From positions 1 to 40,417 of the forward strand of contig JAJRQQ010000020.1 in NCBI GenBank assembly GCA_024280155.1: 40,417 bases of DNA, written 5' to 3'. Numbering within the stretch: position 1 is the stretch's first letter; each line of letters opens with the position of its first letter. This document shows, in pieces, positions 10,207 to 31,462 of this stretch. The position numbers and the translations under genes are program-made. The notes under the pieces were generated by a model. It was not told the origin of the DNA. It did no database searches and saw only the letters and a program-made list of their open reading frames with translations. The DNA is from Bacteroidota bacterium (GTDB lineage: Bacteria > Bacteroidota > Bacteroidia > Flavobacteriales_D > Crocinitomicaceae).

Positions 10207-10812
10207 ATGGCAAGATATACAGGACCAACTTCAAAAATTGCACGTCGTTTCCAAGATCCAATCTTCGGACCAGACAAGTCGTTGGAAAAAAGACAATACG
10301 GACCAGGTCAACATGGACCAAACCGTCGTCGTGGTAAACAATCTGAATATGCAATTCAGTTAGCTGAAAAACAAAAAGCGAAATATACTTATGGCATATT
10401 AGAGAAACAATTCTCTAATATGTTTAAAAAAGCTTCAAGAATGAAAGGGATTACAGGTGAAAACTTGTTACAACTTTGTGAAGCGCGTTTAGATAACATG
10501 GTATATCGTTTAGGAGTTTCCCCTACTCGTAGAGGTGCTCGTCAATTAGTTACACATAAGCACATTACAGTTAATGGTGAGTTGGTAAACATACCTTCTT
10601 ACTCAGTAAAAATTGGAGACATTATCAGTGTTCGTGAAAAATCTAAATCGTTAGAAGCGATTTCAAATTCACTTGCTGCTAATACGAATTCATTCGATTG
10701 GTTAGATTGTAATCCTTCTGCATTACAAGGTAAAGTAGTTGGAGAACCAACAAGAGAAATGATTCCTGAAAACATCAAGGAACAATTAATCGTTGAATTG
10801 TACTCTAAATAA
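10207..10812 (+). CDS. rpsD: 30S ribosomal protein S4
   Basis: The 201-residue product starts [20 protein letters not shown] and contains the S4-type RNA-binding domain [20 protein letters not shown] plus [14 protein letters not shown]4 initiates 30S assembly and, in enterobacteria, autoregulates the alpha operon. The N-terminus lacks the cysteine cluster of zinc-binding S4. The 79 bases upstream contain only short complementary segments, too weak to call a regulatory leader. Confidence 0.98.
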
Positions 10813-21787: not shown

Positions 21788-24700
21788 TTACCCCACCAAT
21801 CTTAATTCTCCCAAAGAAGAATAATATAGGTAGCATCTAACATTTGGATAATCCATTTCATTCAAAACAGATTGATAGGTTGTGATTTGTTTGATATCTT
21901 TATTTTCAGGCATTCCCGTCTTGTAATCAATAATAATGGTTTCATCTTTTTTGAGAATTATTTTGTCGGGACGGATATTTGTTGTAGAATCAATAATAAA
22001 CGATTGTTCGTTTAAGACACTAATTTTATTCTCAAAAAGTGAACGATATTCTGGAAAGTTGATTAATTCATTCAGCTTTTGACTTAATTCTTCTGCATTC
22101 GATTGGTCAACTTCACCTTCTTCAATGTATTTCTTAATTACTTCCTCAACAGAGGAGTCTTGATCTATTTTACTCGCCAATAAATGAAACTGAATTCCAA
22201 ATTGCATTTCACTACTTAAATAGTCAGTTGAGTCTAAGTCTTCGTGGTCTCTTAGAGAAATATCAGGAAACCATAATTTATCTGAAATGTTTTTAGGATG
22301 ATAAATTGATGGTGGCTTTATTATGTCATCTTCTTCATCTTCTATTGTTCTAAACCTCGAGCCAATGGTCAAAAGAACTTCATTATCAATAATTTCTATG
22401 TTCTTTTGTTGTGATAAGATATCGTGGAAGAAAGTCCCGAATTTCTTTCCATTGAAATAATTTTGTATGTATAAACGCTCAACAGGACGTGTCATAGCAA
22501 CGTAACAAATGTTTGTAGAATCAGTCCTAACCTGCTCTTCTTCTTCTTTGTAGATGTCAATTAACTCTTGTATTATTTCACTCGAAGAAGGTTTCTTATA
22601 GATGATAAAATCGTCTGTGTTGACTAAGAAATGTTCTTTTATCTGAAGATTATAATCTACTGTTGGTAAAATTACTACAGGGAATTCAAGCCCCTTTGAT
22701 TTATGAACAGTCATAATTCGAATAGAATCTTTACTCTCAGGAATTTGAACAGCAATTTTCTTTTTTGTCCTTTCGTATTCTTCCAGAAATAGGCGTAAAT
22801 TGGGTCCTTTTTTTAATTCAAAATCAAAACAAACGTCAGCAAGGTGGTGAATATAGGGGTTCTCCAATTCATTAAAATCTAAAATGCGGTAAAAACCTTG
22901 AATTAAATCGTAAATACTTTCATAATGAAAAAGAAATTCATTCTTAGACTTAAAAAAATCAAGGATGAAGGATTCGTCATCAAAATATCGGTAACCTTCT
23001 TTGGAAGTTTTAAAGTACGATTGATAAATAGAGAAATCTTTATTTTTTAGTTTTAAATATAATTCAATAAATTTCTTTTTATCATTGCTTGTATAACGCA
23101 GTCTCCAGTATAAATAATTAATGGTTAATCGCACCATCTTATCTGAATCAATTAATAAAGACTCTGAAGACACAACAGAATATCCTTCTTCCGTCAATAA
23201 GATTGCCCAATTATTCAAGTTCTTATTTTTATCACCAAGAATACAAATGTCACCGTAATCAAATCCATCTATTTTACATTCTTCAATCCATTCTATAATC
23301 TGACTAACGATTTGCTCATCTTCGGTTTTAGCTTGCATTGATTTAATCGTAATGAGCCCGTTAATTTCTGATTTAGGAGTTTGATGAATCGACTTATAAT
23401 AAGAAGCCGTTTTTGAGGACATTGTTTGTTTGAAATCTTCAAAAAAATCATTATTGAAATTAACAATCGTTGGACTTGATCGGTAATTAAATTCTAATTC
23501 TTCAGTATTTCCCATGGTGATAAAAAAGTCAGAGACTTCTTTTATTTGAGAATTCTTATCTGGATTGTATATTCTCGGCAATTCGATAAATTGTTCTGCC
23601 AATCCATTTTTAAAACGATAAATGGACTGTTTTGCATCTCCGACGATTAAGTTTTTCTTGTTGTTGCCTAAAGAATCATGAATCAACGGAACAATATTGA
23701 GCCATTGCATGTGTGAAGTGTCTTGGAATTCGTCCAATAAGAAGTGTTGAAATCTTGTACCTAAACGCTCATAAACATAGAGTGTATTTTCTTTCTGGAT
23801 AAGCTCAGCGATAAGTGAACTGAATTCAGAAATAAGGATCATTTGATCTTCTACCTTTATTTTTCGGAGTGCTTTTGCCATAAACTGCAATAAAGCCATG
23901 TTGAAAAAATTAGCTAAAAAGAGTTTCGTTTTAACATATTCTTGAAGATTCCCTTTCCATTTTTCATAGAAATAAAGAATGTCATTTTTTAGATTAAAAG
24001 GAAAATCCTCATTTTCCATATTCTGAAAATATTTTTCAGTGAATAAGGGGGAGCTATTTGTAGAGATGTAAAAACAATCTTGCTTTCTGATTGTTTTAAA
24101 ACGTCTAGAAACATTGCTTTTTCCAGGTAAAGATTTCACATCAATTTCATTCTCAAATTTTACAATAAAAACATCTACATCTTGTAGAAATGTTTTATCC
24201 ATCTCTTTTTTACGACGCATCAATTCTTTGTGTTGATCCATTGTAAAGGTCATCTCCATGAGTATTTCTACTTTTTTCTTGTTCTTTTCAGAAGTAAGAA
24301 TTTTACCAAATTCAACGAGCTTTCTTCGGATATTCCATGAATTCCCCTCTTCTAGATTTGATTCCGCATATTTTATAACCAATTCATTCAGTTTAACTTG
24401 GTCTTCTTGACCGAGTTGATTGAGAATGTCATCGACTATTTTTCCAGCACTTCGTTTTGATCCATGATAACATCAAAATCATGAACGAGGTTCAACTCTC
24501 TACCAAATGACCGAATAAGGCGAAGGTTGAATTTATCAATAGTCATGACGTTAAAATCTTCGTACTGATGAAGGATATTCATTAGTACTTTTTGACATCT
24601 ACTCTCAATTGTACCTTTTGAGCAGTTTAATTCTTCAGACAACTCCTCTGTTAAGTAAGAAAGTTTATTGTCATAAAGAACGGGTGAACTTATTTTATCC

Positions 24701-24885
24701 AAAGAACTAATGATTCGCTCTTTCATTTCTATCGCAGCTTTATTCGTAAAAGTCATTGCAATAATGTTGGCAAAAGATCGGTTGTTATTTGTGTCGATTA
24801 ATAGCAGGATGTATTCTTTTACTAAACGATATGTTTTTCCACTTCCCGCAGAAGCATTAACGATGTTGAATGGTTTATTATGCAT
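21788..24885 (-). pseudogene. AddA/RecB-like UvrD helicase-nuclease, split by a 1-base frameshift
   Basis: Read 5' to 3' on the minus strand, 24885-24436 gives a 149-residue N-terminal fragment: Walker A ASAGSGKT at residues 11-18, then MTFTNKAAIEMKERI and MTIDKFNLRLIRSF. The next frame, 24435-21788, carries the rest: DEFQDTS (motif II), VGDAKQSIYRF (III), EFNYRSSP (IV), TVHKSKGLEFPVVILP (V), YVAMTRPVERLYI (VI) and a C-terminal PD-(D/E)XK nuclease (IRPDKI ... IIIDYKTG). Adding one A to the A5 run at 24439-24443 joins the frames (EVLEKIVDDILNQLG) into about 1032 residues. The family resects double-strand breaks and starts recombination. The usual AddB-type partner gene is absent here; a RAYT gene sits immediately upstream. 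The fault could be a real mutation or a sequencing error. Confidence 0.85.
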
Positions 24886-24944: not shown

Positions 24945-25499
24945 TTAGTTGTAAACAATAATCAAAATTTGAGATTGAATCGAATAATAATTCAGTAAAA
25001 ATTCTTTTTTTGAATCTTGTTTTGTTATCTCCCAATAGGAGGAATGAGGGTAGGTTTTAAAGTTTTCAATTCCATGATGTGAAGAATTTGAATTTATATA
25101 TAGGATAACATTTTTGAGTTGTTCCATTGATTCTATTTTCTTTTTTCTTAAGTTTTTTTGAAATAAGCTTCCAGTTCTATTGTACCTTTTATTGATCGCT
25201 TTTGAATATGCATTAAGCATATTTGAAAACGGTATGTGTAGCATTTCTTCACGGTCACGGTATTTTTTAGGCAATTCCTCAAAAGATTTTATCTTGACTA
25301 AGAAATGGTAATGATTTGGCAATAGACAGTAACTGAGCACTTCGGCTGTACCGTTAAGATGTCGTTTCATTAATTTTAAAAAATAGTTGTAATTTTCTCT
25401 GTCTTTAAAAATTATTTCCTTGTTATTACCCCGGTTGTAGACATGGTAATAACAATCAGATTTAAACTTCTCCATTAGTGATTTTTTTAGGTATTCCAT
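24945..25499 (-). CDS. REP-associated tyrosine transposase (RAYT, Y1 HUH family)
   Basis: A 184-residue protein of the IS200-like Y1 superfamily. The HUH motif is His63-Tyr64-His65 in LLPNHYHFLVK. The likely catalytic tyrosine is Tyr134 in VILYINSNSSHHG, at the place where relatives have YIHxNPV. The N-terminal CYYHVYNRGNNKEIIF is the family's first strand. It is probably a single-copy, domesticated enzyme that acts on REP palindromes instead of forming an insertion sequence, because the ACCTTCCAGGT motifs flank it in inverted orientation. A second in-frame Met at residue 9 is an alternative start. It lies 59 bases upstream of the frameshifted helicase gene and is on the same strand. Confidence 0.9.
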   Translation of the reverse strand: MEYLKKSLMEKFKSDCYYHVYNRGNNKEIIFKDRENYNYFLKLMKRHLNGTAEVLSYCLLPNHYHFLVKIKSFEELPKKYRDREEMLHIPFSNMLNAYSKAINKRYNRTGSLFQKNLRKKKIESMEQLKNVILYINSNSSHHGIENFKTYPHSSYWEITKQDSKKEFLLNYYSIQSQILIIVYN

Positions 25500-25608: not shown

Positions 25609-26349
25609 ATGAAGCATCTTTTCTCAATAATACTACTTCTTATCGTTTTTACATCATGTAAAGATAAAGAGAAACCAGAACCTATAATTCCCAACCATTA
25701 TATCAAAATAAATGTCCACCCTAAATACGGAAATGAAACCTTGTACCTTGATTCAGTTTTTCAAACAGCAGAAGGATATGACATAAAATTCACGGACATA
25801 AAATTTTACTTGCAAGATGTCAAGAATGGCAGTTCAATTTTATCGACTGTAGGACTTTTTGATTATCGATTAAATGGCGTTCTTGCTATTAAAGAAATTG
25901 GAACGAAAGATGCTTTTAGTTCGATAACAGCTAATCTTGGTGTTGATGCAGCAATCAACCATAACGACCCAACTGCATTTAGTAATTCAAGCCCATTGAA
26001 CATTGCAATTGCCAACGATATGCATTGGGGTTGGAATCCTGGATATATTTTTATGAAAGTAGAGGCAAAAGCAGATACTTTACAGAATGGAATTGAAAAT
26101 TTTGATCAAACCATTGTTTTTCATATCGGTTTAGATGTAAATTTAGAGACCTTGAATTTTTCCAACTTAAATTGGACAACTGTCGGGGACGAAGACATCT
26201 TGGATTTAAAATTAGATATGCAATCTTTTCTTACCACTCCTCAAAGTATAGATGTTAAAACAGAATTCACTTGCCACTCAGCTGTTGGACAAGAATTACT
26301 TGCTACAAAAGTAATTACGAATTTTAAAAATTCGATTTCTCCACTATGA
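25609..26349 (+). CDS. MbnP-like lipoprotein (candidate copper-binding, kynurenine-bearing protein)
   Basis: 246 residues with a lipoprotein signal (MKHLFSIILLLIVFTSC, Cys17 as the lipidated residue). The body (HYIKINVHPKYGNETLYLDS, KFTDIKFYLQDV) and the motif MHWGWNPGYIFMKVEA at residues 138-153 fit the MbnP family. In the studied MbnP/MbnH pair, the diheme enzyme MbnH oxidises a tryptophan of MbnP to kynurenine and the product binds copper. Trp140 or Trp142 is a candidate target, which is inference. The ATG of the diheme gene overlaps this stop by 4 bases (26346-26349), so the two are translationally coupled. No methanobactin genes are visible. It is probably periplasmic or surface-exposed. 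Confidence 0.8.
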   Translation: MKHLFSIILLLIVFTSCKDKEKPEPIIPNHYIKINVHPKYGNETLYLDSVFQTAEGYDIKFTDIKFYLQDVKNGSSILSTVGLFDYRLNGVLAIKEIGTKDAFSSITANLGVDAAINHNDPTAFSNSSPLNIAIANDMHWGWNPGYIFMKVEAKADTLQNGIENFDQTIVFHIGLDVNLETLNFSNLNWTTVGDEDILDLKLDMQSFLTTPQSIDVKTEFTCHSAVGQELLATKVITNFKNSISPL

Positions 26350-27416
26350 TGCGTTACTTAGCATTTATTCTTCTCCTTATTCTTGCTTATTCTTGTAAAA
26401 AAGATAAAGTGGAAGCTATTCCAACGCCTTATACACTAAAAATACCTTCTCATTTTCCAGATATGATTATTCCTGAGGATAATCCAATGACAGTTGAGGG
26501 AGTTGAATTGGGAAGAAAACTCTTTTATGAGAAAAAGTTGAGCGGTGATAATTCATTGTCGTGTGCAACTTGTCACGCGCCTGATTTAGCTTTTGCTGAT
26601 GCACATCAATTTTCCGAAGGAATTGACGGTCAATTGGGGACTCGTAACTCAATGGCGCTAATTAATTTAGGATGGAACACATCGTTCTTTTGGGATGGGC
26701 GTTCAAAAACATTAGAAGAACAAATAATCGAACCAGTTATCAATCCCGTTGAAATGCATACTACTTGGCAAAGTGTTGTGGGTAAATTAAGTGCTGATGT
26801 AGTGTATAGGAACATGTTTTTTAAAGCGTTTAATGTTAAAAATATTGATTCTACTTATGCTGCTAAAGCAATTGCACAGTTTATTCGAACGTTAATATCT
26901 GGTTCTTCTAAATTTGATGTCATGTATAAGTTTGAGAATAATTTGCCATTATCGCCCAATGAAATATCAATTCAGGGAACAATAACTCCTTCAGAGTGGG
27001 CAGGGTATGATTTATTCAAGAGCTTAAATGGAGCAGATTGTTTTCACTGTCACAATGGGCCGTTGATGCAAGTGCAAAAATTCAGTAACAATGGCTTGGA
27101 TGCTACTTTTTCTGATGTTGGAAGAGGTGCAATATCCGGAAACGTAGATGATAATGGTAAGTTTAAAGTTCCAACATTGAGAAATATAGCATTTACTGCA
27201 CCGTACATGCATGATGGTCGTTTTACAACCTTGGACGAAGTTATAAATCATTACTCACATGGGATTCAAATGAGTTCAACAATTGATCCATTGATTGAAT
27301 TTGCTGGACAAGGGGGGGTGCAATTGGATGCGCAAGAAAAAGATTTATTGAAACAATTCTTAATGACCTTGACAGATTCTTCGTTTATTAATAATTCCAA
27401 TTTCAAAGAACCGTAA
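26346..27416 (+). CDS. MbnH-like diheme cytochrome c peroxidase family enzyme, lipoprotein
   Basis: 356 residues with a lipoprotein signal (Cys17 in LAYSC). Two heme c motifs are present, CATCH (Cys73, Cys76, His77) and CFHCH (Cys232, Cys235, His236). The region NLGWNTSFFWDGRSKTLEEQ lies between them, and VPTLRNIAFTAPYMHDGRF near the C-terminus is diagnostic of the MauG/CcpA family. The pairing with an MbnP-like gene and the 4-base start/stop overlap point to MbnH, which modifies a tryptophan, and not to a stand-alone hydrogen peroxide scavenger. The second diheme enzyme in this window (30434-31462) has no such partner and looks like a classical peroxidase. Confidence 0.88.
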   Translation: MMRYLAFILLLILAYSCKKDKVEAIPTPYTLKIPSHFPDMIIPEDNPMTVEGVELGRKLFYEKKLSGDNSLSCATCHAPDLAFADAHQFSEGIDGQLGTRNSMALINLGWNTSFFWDGRSKTLEEQIIEPVINPVEMHTTWQSVVGKLSADVVYRNMFFKAFNVKNIDSTYAAKAIAQFIRTLISGSSKFDVMYKFENNLPLSPNEISIQGTITPSEWAGYDLFKSLNGADCFHCHNGPLMQVQKFSNNGLDATFSDVGRGAISGNVDDNGKFKVPTLRNIAFTAPYMHDGRFTTLDEVINHYSHGIQMSSTIDPLIEFAGQGGVQLDAQEKDLLKQFLMTLTDSSFINNSNFKEP

Positions 27417-27514: not shown

Positions 27515-28936
27515 ATGATTGACGAAAGAAGACTCACAACGGAAGAAAAGGCATTAAAAATTAATTTAACGGCTGATATTTATGGATGTTTTGCTGAAAT
27601 TGGTGCAGGGCGAGAAGTTGCTGCAAATTTCTTTAAGGCAGGTGGAAGTTCAGGAACGATAGCTCATACTCAATCTGCTTATGACATGAAAGTATCGGAT
27701 TCAATGTACGGGAAATCCCACAGATATGTGTGTGAAGAACGTCTGGAGACGATGTTGAGAACAGAATACGATACATTGAAATCTCGTTTGCCTGAGAAAT
27801 TCAAAGAATCTCGTTTTTTCTCTTTCTGTAATACCGTTGAGTCATTGAATTACCATAAAACAAACCAAGGACACGGTTGGGTCGGATTACGCTTTCAATT
27901 GAATTTAGAAGAAGAGCCCAATGAGGTTATTTTACATATTAAATTACACGATATAAGCCACCGGGCTCAGCAAGAGGCGATTGGGATTCTTGGAGTAAAT
28001 TTAATTCATAGCAGCTATTTTCATAATCATGATTTGGATGAGTTTTTATCTAATATCGTTCACCGCCTTCCTCGTGACCGTATGGAAATTGATATGTTAC
28101 GTATTTCAGGACCACAATTTGAGGATGTTGACAACAGAATTATAGCATTGAACCTTGTAAAACGAGGAGTCACGGATGCAACCATGTTTGATTTATCTGG
28201 AAATGTTTTACAACCTGCAACCGCTTTATATAAAAAGAATATCCTCTTGATGAGAGGTCGATTTAGACCCGTTACCAATGTCCATGTTGATATGATTGAA
28301 CATGGTAAAGAGCAGTTTCTTAAAGAAGAAGGTGTTGAAGAGAGTAAGCTAAGAGTTATTTTTGAGTTGACCTTGAAAGACTTAACTGCAGATGGTAAGA
28401 TTTCGGATAAAGATTTTGTTGATCGTGCAGAACTATTAGGAACATTAGGGTATACAGTGATGATTAGTAATTATCTCAAGCACTATAAAATGGTGGATTA
28501 CTTATCAACGATTGCAAAAGACCGGAGAATGGGAGTGATTGTAGGAATCTATAATCTTCATACAATTTTTGATGAAAAATACTACGGAAATCTACGTGGA
28601 GGATTGTTGGAAGCTTTTGGTAGAGGTTTTGGACATAATGTGAAAATGTTTGTTTATCCTGCACTTGAAGTTGAAACTGGAGAGCTTTATCAATTGAAGG
28701 ATTTTGAAATTGAAAATAAATTACAAGGGCTACTTCAATATATGAAAGACAATGATAAGCTAGAAGAGATAAAAGAATTCAATGAAAAATGTCTTTATAT
28801 TATGTCTGATGATGTACTCGCTAAGATAAAAGCAGGAGCTTCCATTTGGGAAGAAGATGTCCCTGATGAAGTGGTGAAAGCAATTAAATTTTATGAGCTT
28901 TTTGGTTACAAAAAGAAAATCGTTGTAGGAAATTAA
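27515..28936 (+). CDS. Conserved protein of unknown function
   Basis: 473 residues from the ATG at 27515 (MIDERRLTTEEKALKINL). An in-frame ATG at 27485 would add ten residues (MFLLYTDNLI), but these look like leader sequence, so 27515 is preferred. No signal peptide or membrane segment is visible, so it is cytoplasmic. The strongest blocks are AEIGAGREVAANFFKAGGSS, YHKTNQGHGWVGLRFQLNLE and RGRFRPVTNVHVDMI. I recall similar proteins in Bacteroidetes but no experimentally supported function, so none is assigned. It is followed after 11 bases by a WYL regulator, a probable operon partner. No nucleotide-binding P-loop or other catalytic motif was identified. Confidence 0.85.
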   Translation: MIDERRLTTEEKALKINLTADIYGCFAEIGAGREVAANFFKAGGSSGTIAHTQSAYDMKVSDSMYGKSHRYVCEERLETMLRTEYDTLKSRLPEKFKESRFFSFCNTVESLNYHKTNQGHGWVGLRFQLNLEEEPNEVILHIKLHDISHRAQQEAIGILGVNLIHSSYFHNHDLDEFLSNIVHRLPRDRMEIDMLRISGPQFEDVDNRIIALNLVKRGVTDATMFDLSGNVLQPATALYKKNILLMRGRFRPVTNVHVDMIEHGKEQFLKEEGVEESKLRVIFELTLKDLTADGKISDKDFVDRAELLGTLGYTVMISNYLKHYKMVDYLSTIAKDRRMGVIVGIYNLHTIFDEKYYGNLRGGLLEAFGRGFGHNVKMFVYPALEVETGELYQLKDFEIENKLQGLLQYMKDNDKLEEIKEFNEKCLYIMSDDVLAKIKAGASIWEEDVPDEVVKAIKFYELFGYKKKIVVGN

Positions 28937-28947
28937 TCTAAAATAGA

Positions 28948-29943
28948 ATGCCTCACATCAAGAATGCTTTAATCCGTTACCGTATTATTGATAAATGTAT
29001 TCGCAATAAATACAACCCTTTTCCGAGTAAACGAGATTTACGTGAAGCATGTGAAGAATCTTTGTTTGGCTCTTTAGATGGAGAACATATTTGTGATTCT
29101 ACCATAGAAAAAGATATTCGTGCTATGCGGGTTGAACACGACGCACCAATTTTATACAATCGTTTGGAGAATGGTTACTACTATGAAGATCCAGAATTTT
29201 CTATCAATGACATTCCTTTAACAGATGATGATATCGAATCAATTAGTTTCGCAGCAAAAACATTAATGCAATTCAAAGATGTTGCTCTTTTTAAACAATT
29301 TGGTAGCGCAATTGATAAAATTGTAAGTAGAATTAATCTCTCTCAAGAGGAAAATACGGATAAATATATTCAATTTGAAACTTCCTCTTCTGAAGGGGGA
29401 AGTGAGTTTTTACCTATAATTCTCGAAGGTATTAATCACAAAAAATGGCTTACGTTTGATTATGCAAGTTTTGTTTCTGGAGAATTGAAACCTCGTAAAG
29501 TAATTCCACTTTTATTGAAACAATACAGTAATCGATGGTATCTTATTTCTTTTGATAAAAGTAAACAAGATTACATTACCTATGCTTTGGACAGAATCGA
29601 GGAGTTAGAATTAACAAAAGAAGACGCAGAAGTACCAATAGATTTTGATGCCGATAATTACTTTAAACACGCCATTGGAATCACAAGCGGAAATACAAAA
29701 CCTTTCGATGTACGACTGAAAACAACTATTGTCGCAGCGAAATATCTCGATTCATTACCTTTTCATCATTCGCAGAAAGTCGTAGAAATGAAAGAAGACT
29801 ATTTTGTGTTTTCTCTCTTTGTTTCTATTTCAGAAGAATTAATTCGTTCTATTTTGAGTTATGGAGGGGAAATTGAAGTTCTGCAACCTCAAGAATTAAA
29901 AAATGAAGTTGTTAAAAGAGCTCAGCGAATATGTGAAAAATAA
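28948..29943 (+). CDS. WYL-domain transcriptional regulator
   Basis: 331 residues. The N-terminus (MPHIKNALIRYRIIDKCIRN ... SKRDLREAC ... STIEKDIRAMR) is a winged-helix DNA-binding region like that of YafY/DeoR-type regulators. The second part carries the WYL motif in SNRWYLISFD, preceded by KWLTFDYASF, and ends with ISEELIRSILSYGGEIEVL, the usual WYL C-terminal extension. WYL domains bind ligands such as nucleic acid or nucleotides in known members. The gene starts 11 bases after the preceding conserved protein. It may regulate that gene, but this is inference. Confidence 0.9.
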   Translation: MPHIKNALIRYRIIDKCIRNKYNPFPSKRDLREACEESLFGSLDGEHICDSTIEKDIRAMRVEHDAPILYNRLENGYYYEDPEFSINDIPLTDDDIESISFAAKTLMQFKDVALFKQFGSAIDKIVSRINLSQEENTDKYIQFETSSSEGGSEFLPIILEGINHKKWLTFDYASFVSGELKPRKVIPLLLKQYSNRWYLISFDKSKQDYITYALDRIEELELTKEDAEVPIDFDADNYFKHAIGITSGNTKPFDVRLKTTIVAAKYLDSLPFHHSQKVVEMKEDYFVFSLFVSISEELIRSILSYGGEIEVLQPQELKNEVVKRAQRICEK

Positions 29944-30433: not shown

Positions 30434-31462
30434 ATGAAAAAGTATTTATTATTTGCAGCAATTTCATCTGTTTTAGTGAGTTGTGGCGGAAATGAAAAGG
30501 TAGAAGAAGTAAAACAAGAAACAAAAACCGAAGATTATGCTTTTGCAGAATTGGATGCGTCAGCAAGAAAAACATTTGGAGCATTATCAGAAGTGAAAAT
30601 TGACGTGAATGACCCAATGATAAAACTGGGAAAAGCACTTTACTTTGATAAACGTCTTTCAAAAGATAATACGCAAAGTTGTAACACTTGCCATGATTTA
30701 AATACGTATGGTGTAGATAACAATTCATTCTCTGCTGGAAATGATGGTGGTTTAGGTGGCAGAAATTCACCGACAACATTAAATGCAGCATTGCATATCG
30801 CTCAATTCTGGGACGGAAGAGAGCCAGATGTTGAAGCACAAGCCGGAGGGCCAATCCTAAATCCTGTTGAGATGGCAATGCCCAGCGAAAAAGCAGTAAT
30901 AGATAGATTATCTCAAATAGATGAATATAAAGTAATGTTTGCGAAAGCATTTCCTGATGTTGCAAACCCAATTACTTATGCGAATTTAAAAACAGCAATT
31001 GGTGCCTTTGAACGATTATTGATTACACCTTCAAAATTTGATCGATATATGAATGGTGATAATGAAGCGCTTTCTCCAAAAGAAAAACGTGGAATGAAAT
31101 TATTTATGGACGCAGGTTGTATTACTTGTCACACCGGTCCTTTGTTAGGAGGGAATATGTACCAGAAGTTTGGTTTAGTCAATGATTATTGGGACTATAC
31201 GAAAAGCGAAAATATTGACAAAGGTCGATTTGATGTTACAGGGAAAGAAAGCGATCTATATGTTTTTAAAGTACCATCTTTACGAAACATTGCTAAAACT
31301 GCACCTTACTTCCACGACGGAAGTGTTCAAAGTATGAACGATGCAATCCAAATAATGGGTAAAGCGCAATTAAATCGTGAGTTATCTGTTCAAGAAGTTT
31401 CAGGAATTGCATTTTTCTTAGAAACATTGACAGGTGATGTTGACGTCCAATTAAAACAATAA
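30434..31462 (+). CDS. Diheme cytochrome c peroxidase, lipoprotein
   Basis: 342 residues with a lipoprotein signal (Cys17 in VLVSC). Heme motifs are CNTCH (Cys83, Cys86, His87) and CITCH (Cys229, Cys232, His233). The region GRFDVTGKESDLYVFKVPSL, then RNIAKTAPYFHDG, is that of classical bacterial cytochrome c peroxidases (CcpA), which reduce hydrogen peroxide with electrons from small cytochromes in the periplasm. The short acidic stretch after Cys17 (GGNEKVEEVKQETKTED) is a likely lipoprotein linker. It is distinct from the MbnH-like enzyme at 26346. The gene ends 14 bases before a 42-bp palindrome. Confidence 0.95.
   Translation: MKKYLLFAAISSVLVSCGGNEKVEEVKQETKTEDYAFAELDASARKTFGALSEVKIDVNDPMIKLGKALYFDKRLSKDNTQSCNTCHDLNTYGVDNNSFSAGNDGGLGGRNSPTTLNAALHIAQFWDGREPDVEAQAGGPILNPVEMAMPSEKAVIDRLSQIDEYKVMFAKAFPDVANPITYANLKTAIGAFERLLITPSKFDRYMNGDNEALSPKEKRGMKLFMDAGCITCHTGPLLGGNMYQKFGLVNDYWDYTKSENIDKGRFDVTGKESDLYVFKVPSLRNIAKTAPYFHDGSVQSMNDAIQIMGKAQLNRELSVQEVSGIAFFLETLTGDVDVQLKQ

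Follow-up and report, generated by a model that had tools for sequence, protein, structure and literature searches.

The best-described counterparts of the gene pair analyzed here are MbnP and MbnH of the methanotroph M. trichosporium OB3b (structures 7l6g and 6e1c, respectively). According to work from 2019 and 2021, the diheme enzyme MbnH reportedly turns the first tryptophan of a WxW motif in MbnP into kynurenine, and MbnP is said to bind one Cu(I) ion through a histidine, a methionine and this kynurenine. MauG, whose partner is methylamine dehydrogenase, is likewise a diheme enzyme of family PF03150 that oxidizes tryptophan in its partner protein, and it carries a tyrosine at the second heme (the title of MauG structure 3orv mentions Y294). 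To our knowledge, protein-derived kynurenine copper sites have been studied in only a few methanotrophs. In the MopE-SACCP and CorA-CorB systems of Methylococcus and Methylomicrobium, a surface Cu(I) protein with a tryptophan-derived kynurenine is accompanied by a diheme c-type cytochrome (PMC3912023, PMC3621798); in CorA, which is encoded with such a cytochrome, copper is held by two histidines and water, with the kynurenine 2.9 Å away (PMC3912023). The MbnP-MbnH pair was described in 2013 as conserved far beyond the methanobactin producers (PMC3621798). Here we analyze a pair of this type in a 40,417-nucleotide stretch of DNA, hereafter the window, which spans positions 1 to 40,417 of contig JAJRQQ010000020.1 (assembly GCA_024280155.1) from a Bacteroidota bacterium of the family Crocinitomicaceae.

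The original prediction, made from the sequence of the window, singled out an MbnP-like lipoprotein gene overlapping a diheme enzyme gene of the MauG/MbnH family and stressed that the pair lies outside any methanobactin context. The second point stands insofar as the window genome (88.8% complete) has no match to MbnB (TIGR04159), MbnA and MbnC not having been searched for; among the 60 relatives, nine have MbnB matches, none of them (0/60) over the cut-off. We rejected, however, the notion that the absence of methanobactin genes is unusual: pairs in organisms that do not make methanobactin were already reported in 2013 (PMC3621798), and because, in addition, both families are already named in Pfam and NCBIfam, a pair outside this context is not new. 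The window pair is a divergent form of a known pair type that is common among close relatives.

Family assignment and predicted structures

The product of the first gene matches the MbnP family PF20243 with 74.3 bits over residues 31-223, above the gathering cut-off of 27, and a profile built from 24 relatives retrieved 7l6g (E 0.0063) as its sole match among PDB sequences at E values up to 1. In that alignment, GMAWNWQAGRRF falls on the MHWGWNPGYIF motif, the first nine residues of which occupy positions 138-146 exactly as originally reported, and HVG falls on His172. An AlphaFold model, computed with the window MbnP and 38 relatives from named genomes, reached a mean pLDDT of 94.1 and a pTM of 0.86, and a Foldseek search of the PDB with this model placed six 7l6g chains at ranks 1-6 (E 7e-7 to 1.4e-5, probability 1.00), followed by the next match at E 0.1. 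By its predicted structure, the window protein is an MbnP fold, and because it scores only 41 bits against the TIGR04052 equivalog, with a cut-off of 140, it is assigned to a distant branch. As in OB3b MbnP, the WxW motif is preceded by a methionine two residues before the first tryptophan, and a histidine occupies the HVG position; the window protein has two cysteines in all, whereas the molecule name given to 7l6g mentions a "four-Cys motif". The alignment to 7l6g places the predicted copper ligands at Met138 and His172, histidine and methionine being the reported ligands in MbnP. This would differ from the two histidines of CorA (PMC3912023), and no likeness of the window MbnP to MopE or CorA was found, with 7l6g alone recovered by the PDB fold search to E 0.001 and by the sequence profile to E 1.

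The product of the second gene scores 191 bits against PF03150 (CCP_MauG) and also matches TIGR04039, the family of MbnH-type diheme enzymes. Its closest solved structure is MbnH (6e1c), both by sequence (phmmer E 5e-47; next match 9e-39) and by predicted fold (Foldseek rank 1, E 1.1e-25, TM 0.81, rmsd 2.6, for an AlphaFold model with a pLDDT of 89.8). The protein contains two heme motifs, C73-x-x-C-H77 and C232-x-x-C-H236. At two diagnostic positions, which in MauG and the cytochrome c peroxidases (CCPs) are the inter-heme tryptophan and the ligand of the second heme, it has Trp116 and a predicted axial Tyr303; the same W/Y combination is present in 6e1c, whereas peroxidase 6qkn has W/M. The diheme gene located 3.0 kb downstream of the pair likewise encodes W/M, and its product, with best PDB matches to 6qkn (E 6e-96) and 6fu3 (E 7e-96), is an ordinary diheme peroxidase, so that the contrast drawn in the original prediction is real. 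Peroxidases of the CcpA/CcpR type share the two-heme fold and the FWDGR segment with the enzyme of the pair but have an axial methionine and no MbnP partner. In this enzyme, the methionine expected of a classical CCP at the second heme is replaced by Tyr303 (29/29 rows of the diheme alignment), and the possibility that it is another ordinary CCP was rejected on this ground. From MauG, the enzyme differs in its partner and product, and it scores 159 of 444 bits against TIGR03791.

Because both proteins have an invariant cysteine and signal-like N-termini, they are probably exported and lipid-anchored at Cys17, as had been predicted. In MbnP, Cys17 is present in 66/66 rows of locus orthologues (some genomes being represented twice) and in 39/39 rows of the alignment with named-genome relatives; in the diheme enzyme, it is found in all 29 rows. 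For Capnocytophaga lipoproteins, PMC5080379 gives C-x-K-(D/E)2 as the optimal surface-export signal, which C-K-D-K-E here matches only loosely. The window pair resembles MbnP-MbnH of OB3b in the adjacency of the genes, the modeled MbnP fold and the MbnH-like enzyme with Trp and Tyr, and differs in the lack of a detected MbnB in the genome and in the probable lipid anchoring of both proteins.

Linkage and conservation across Bacteroidota

Three sets of genomes were analyzed: 60 relatives, 296 genomes drawn across the phylum, and a set of named genomes, which was selected with the pattern M[HYF]WxWx[SPT]GY[IRF] and is uninformative on motif conservation. Because an iterated MbnP profile picked up unrelated proteins as well, some of which end in a type IX sorting tail, MbnP counts were taken from a trimmed core profile. 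Adjacency was scored under a two-sided rule for proteins of at least 150 amino acids with enough contig around them, and proteins identical over the last 150 residues were counted once, which removes six rows of the named set.

PF20243 was detected in 57 of the 60 relatives and PF03150 in 58. Across the phylum, PF20243 is present in 78 of the 296 genomes and TIGR04039, used at E 0.001 as a loose marker, in 151, including 78/78 MbnP-positive genomes versus 73/218 of the others (Fisher p 2e-29); the TIGR04039 cut-off is passed in 3/296. A diheme gene adjoins the MbnP gene in 116/120 cases among the relatives and 91/92 in the phylum sample, together 207/212 evaluable distinct proteins (67/74 in the named set). 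In five loci (L225, L283, L298, L299 and L306), the two genes overlap by more than the first adjacency rule permitted, and in L233, the diheme gene lies upstream of MbnP. Given the homology, the linkage and the predicted folds, chance is excluded as the source of this homologous pair.

The residues implicated in the putative copper site are also conserved. Trp140 is retained in 125/126 MbnPs of the relatives and 90/92 of the phylum sample, Trp142 in 122/126 and 81/92, Met138 in 122/126 and 78/92, and His172 in 118/126 and 91/92. The original prediction had been staked on tryptophan conservation and on linkage in relatives, and both are borne out. Orthologues of the locus itself provided 66 aligned rows with 14 invariant columns at a median column identity of 55%; 64 rows, found next to the right-hand neighbor gene, are distinct and 34 of these come from the motif-picked named set, so that the fair count is based on the other 30 (L114, with two MbnPs and another motif, was excluded). 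Met138, Trp140 and His172 are present in 30/30 of these, and the diheme gene and Trp142 in 29/30 each, with the same single exception, L104 of genome G031. There, the flanks are unchanged, MYWDTNKGY replaces MHWxWNPGY, tblastn detected no significant diheme remnant (best E 0.59), and a search of the genome, which is 72% complete, yielded no PF03150 match. This joint loss fits an enzyme acting on this motif. A strict rule of "no enzyme, no WxW" was rejected: in the relatives and phylum sets, five evaluable MbnPs have no diheme gene, and two of them retain the motif (L041, L121); all seven diheme-less MbnPs of the named set also carry WxW, for which that set was selected.

Several variants of the MbnP were observed as well. 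In L040, L048, L057, L061, L073 and L078, MbnPs with MDWSW or MDWGW lack His172 in the presence of both WxW and a diheme gene, and some of these adjoin multicopper oxidases. L202, L205 and L212 encode tandem MbnPs, the second of which has M in place of the motif G (ASMYRF or ATMYRF), with no diheme gene in the locus. In L111 and L362 (genome G034), MbnP has no WxW and no diheme gene nearby, and it still adjoins c11, a small cysteine protein considered below, and a 353-residue protein with Met- and His-rich stretches.

Predicted maturation of MbnP and competing explanations

Family identity, predicted folds, conservation, linkage and the single lineage lacking both the enzyme and Trp142 are the observations from which we infer the chemistry of the pair. 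Because the required residues are conserved and the enzyme carries the diagnostic residues of MbnH, we consider it probable that the diheme enzyme matures MbnP by converting Trp140 into kynurenine and that a Cu(I) site is formed with Met138 and His172. The two genes, likely translationally coupled through their shared ATGA (the open reading frames and the 4-base overlap are as originally described; Table 1), would function as a single unit beyond the inner membrane, with both products exported and presumably tethered through Cys17. Supplied with H2O2, or with O2 plus electrons, the diheme enzyme would reach a high-valent diheme state, as presumed from MbnH and MauG, and would oxidize Trp140 of its partner to kynurenine, following the precedent of M. 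trichosporium MbnP. This precedent points to Trp140, the first tryptophan of WxW, rather than Trp142 as the predicted site, and Trp140 is also the more conserved of the two. Kynurenine would then complete a mononuclear Cu(I) site with Met138 and His172, as the alignment suggests, and the copper-loaded lipoprotein may store, scavenge or hand on copper, given that some of the relatives' pairs adjoin copper genes.

Several observations weigh against this scheme. The assignment is remote: MbnP reaches 40.9 bits against TIGR04052, the best stretch being residues 94-174, the E value behind its alignment to 7l6g is 0.0063, the fold match to 7l6g has a TM of 0.52-0.56, an rmsd of about 6 and 12-13% identity, and the diheme enzyme scores 244.9 bits against TIGR04039, below the cut-off of 362.85, so that, compared with the OB3b proteins, both members of the pair fall short of the NCBIfam equivalog cut-offs. 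At E 0.001, TIGR04039 also finds matches in E. coli and Methanosarcina. No copper genes were identified among the Pfam-scanned genes between positions 10207 and 40256 of the window, and the conserved flanks of the pair are a UvrD-like helicase, a gene without a family and a WYL regulator; the copper role of the window pair is one that we infer. L104 retains Trp140, the predicted kynurenine residue, and loses Trp142, and this enzyme-less lineage is a single metagenome-assembled genome (MAG) of 72% completeness. In the relatives and phylum sets, 12 of the 207 MbnPs that adjoin a diheme gene lack WxW, including one-tryptophan MEW forms (L077, L095) and YWxxW forms (L308, L314), and two lack Trp140 itself, one being a good match (L316) and the other the weaker, second match of its locus (L320). 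Finally, the diheme-less MbnPs that keep WxW (2/5) possess the motif with no adjoining enzyme.

Alternatively, the main role of the diheme enzyme could be that of a peroxidase in the periplasm, with MbnP as its electron-relay or docking partner and WxW mediating electron transfer with no kynurenine being formed. PF03150 includes bacterial CCPs, high scores are obtained for CCP structures in both the sequence and the fold comparison, and WxW-containing MbnPs lacking a diheme gene exist alongside single-tryptophan MbnPs that have one; yet a tyrosine, as in 6e1c, consistently occupies the position of the CCP methionine, a classical CCP is already encoded nearby, and the enzyme is nearest to MbnH, not to CCPs, and strongly linked to MbnP, making this explanation unlikely. 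We give even less credence to a different modification of MbnP, such as hydroxylation of tryptophan or a MauG-like cross-link between W140 and W142, which would yield a redox cofactor instead of a copper site. The solved homologue, in which WxW is found at the same place, reportedly carries kynurenine and copper, Met138 and His172 are conserved in the manner that a copper site requires, and some related pairs have copper genes in their vicinity; this must be set against the retention of both tryptophans in 195/207 diheme-adjacent MbnPs, which exceeds the need of a single kynurenine, and against the enzyme-less lineage of the locus having lost the second tryptophan and not the first.

It is also conceivable, if very improbable, that the locus is a leftover of an ancestral cassette, other parts of which were lost in the genus, and that it has little role in copper handling at present. 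The 14 invariant columns against a median identity of 55% look like purifying selection rather than decay (34 of the 64 distinct rows being motif-picked), and both genes persist in 29/30 of the orthologues that were not picked by motif, even though the cassettes of L115 and L146 are richer than the MbnP and single diheme gene found here, L104 has lost the diheme gene, and the MbnP of L111, with no diheme gene in its surroundings, has lost the motif. Kynurenine formation at Trp140 followed by Cu(I) binding is the explanation that we favor.

Genomic context, tandem enzymes and associated proteins

The gene order consisting of the UvrD/AddA-like gene on the opposite strand, the pair, the c2 gene and the WYL regulator recurs across the genus (Table 1). 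The c2 gene, for which searches against Pfam and NCBIfam returned no match at 0.001, is tentatively labeled "NAMPT-like". In the window, the UvrD/AddA-like gene is split into open reading frames of 149 and 864 amino acids, versus a single one of 1040 or 1056 amino acids in L076 and L104, which may reflect a real break or an assembly error; the transposase-like frame beside it is not drawn at the same place in the other genus maps. The named relatives are mainly MAGs of Crocinitomicaceae and other Flavobacteriales, the nearest non-MAG record being Fluviicola chungangensis, at 40%.

Table 1. Features of the window locus and of associated genes elsewhere (coordinates with an L prefix refer to other loci, all others to the window)
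Feature	Coordinates	Strand	Basis or remark
MbnP-family lipoprotein, 246 aa	25609..26349	+	PF20243; AlphaFold and Foldseek match to 7l6g
MbnP codons 137-146 (D-M-H-W-G-W-N-P-G-Y), WxW motif	26017..26046	+	Alignment to 7l6g
Trp140 codon, predicted kynurenine site	26026-26028	+	
MbnH-family diheme enzyme, 356 aa	26346..27416	+	PF03150; TIGR04039; best PDB match 6e1c
ATGA common to MbnP stop and diheme start (4-base overlap)	26346..26349	+	
UvrD/AddA-like helicase gene, conserved left neighbor, two ORFs here	21788..24885	-	Pfam UvrD; cluster c1
REP-associated tyrosine transposase-like ORF, between helicase and MbnP	24945-25499	-	NF047646, 43 bits of 80
Conserved right neighbor of the pair	27515..28936	+	Cluster c2
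WYL-domain regulator, same order conserved	28948..29943	+	PF13280, PF25583; cluster c4
Classical diheme cytochrome c peroxidase, 342 aa, contrast, outside the pair	30434..31462	+	6qkn, 6fu3; axial Met
c11, window genome (G000)	L345:90-455 (contig 63)		Beside YtkA-like lipoprotein and TonB receptor
c13, secreted protein of ~310 aa	L133:4910-5845; L114:7684-8598; L117:4895-5827		Often beside c11 and MbnP

Genes linked to copper are found around related pairs. In L041, the diheme-less MbnP lies tail to tail with genes on the opposite strand for a CopA-type ATPase, an RND/CusB-like adaptor and a CopZ-like protein. Among 119 loci of the relatives, a multicopper oxidase (c6) is encoded on the same strand within 4.5 kb in 8 and a heavy-metal-associated protein (c17) in 9. 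In L053, L082, L097 and others, MbnP and MbnH are preceded, in this order, by an ECF sigma factor, a small protein and a PF13801-like protein (a weak metal-resistance match), and are followed by a YHYH protein that ends in a type IX tail.

The original description of the system as stand-alone is accurate for the window; in some other families, the same locus holds more genes. Thus, in L115 and L146, from other families of the order, a UvrD-like gene lies near c11, c13, MbnP and two diheme genes, and since such families carry more genes at this locus, the window pair may be a reduced form of a larger cassette. Tandem diheme genes follow MbnP in L114, L115, L117, L119, L126, L150 and other loci. 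In the relatives and phylum sets, the first enzyme of the tandem lacks the inter-heme tryptophan in 24/27 cases and the second has both Trp and Tyr in 26/27; in the named set, which has some genomes in common with the others, each pattern holds in 12/12. In a quick tree of 128 diheme enzymes, built with no bootstraps, two clades were recovered, one of 41 rows (support 84) and the other of 65 rows (support 96), and each of 21 tandem loci contributes one enzyme to each clade, with the order reversed in L137. The window enzyme falls into the 65-row clade, that of the second type. The third diheme enzyme of the window genome, located on contig 26 (L035:8327-9316), is a first-type orphan without MbnP in which the diagnostic positions are occupied by Ala and Tyr; it lies 24 bases from c20, and in the loci of six relatives, c20 comes ahead of MbnP and the enzyme, in that order.

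Two proteins for which no family was found accompany some of the pairs. c11 is a membrane-type protein of about 125 amino acids with the signature C-x-N-K-x-x-P-x-x-x-C-x-G-x-C-x-L-x-K, in which the three cysteines are invariant in the alignment, and a C-terminal PP; the copies scanned have no match in Pfam or NCBIfam up to 0.01. It occurs near MbnP in 14/119 loci of the relatives and 23/60 of the phylum sample. The idea that c11 is an obligate third member of the pair was rejected: it is present in 118/296 phylum genomes, compared with 78 for MbnP and 57 common to both, and being more widespread than MbnP, it is linked to copper by association only. All six PDB matches of the TonB receptor beside c11 in the window genome are to OprC (E from 1e-21), its score against TIGR01778 is 141 bits, below the cut-off of 472, and it contains CTDHM and HAM 183 residues apart; in OprC, the motif is CxxxM-HxM (PMC11213822). 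Guilt by association, at two steps from the pair, suggests a connection of c11 and this receptor to copper. The secreted protein c13 has CDxC near its predicted mature N-terminus, a fold that we guess to be a barrel, and no Pfam match among the copies scanned. No published account of c11, c13 or the tandem diheme pairs was found among the openly licensed literature.

These associations allow for the tentative, and in our view rather doubtful, proposal that Bacteroidota possess an extracytoplasmic copper system of modular make-up, in which two diheme paralogues share out the maturation of MbnP, and of which c11 and c13 may be components that accompany some of the pairs. The parts of such a system may be scattered in the window genome, with MbnP and the second-type enzyme in the pair, the first-type orphan located on contig 26, and, on contig 63, c11 beside the OprC-like receptor.

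As a small cysteine protein without a family, c11 is a candidate component of copper homeostasis. The orthologue set offers ready controls, namely, the enzyme-less locus, the one-tryptophan loci, and the tandem enzymes that have or lack the inter-heme tryptophan. If the pair works in the same way as its methanotroph counterpart, kynurenine copper sites would be common in this phylum, where PF20243 is found in 57/60 relatives and 78/296 genomes.

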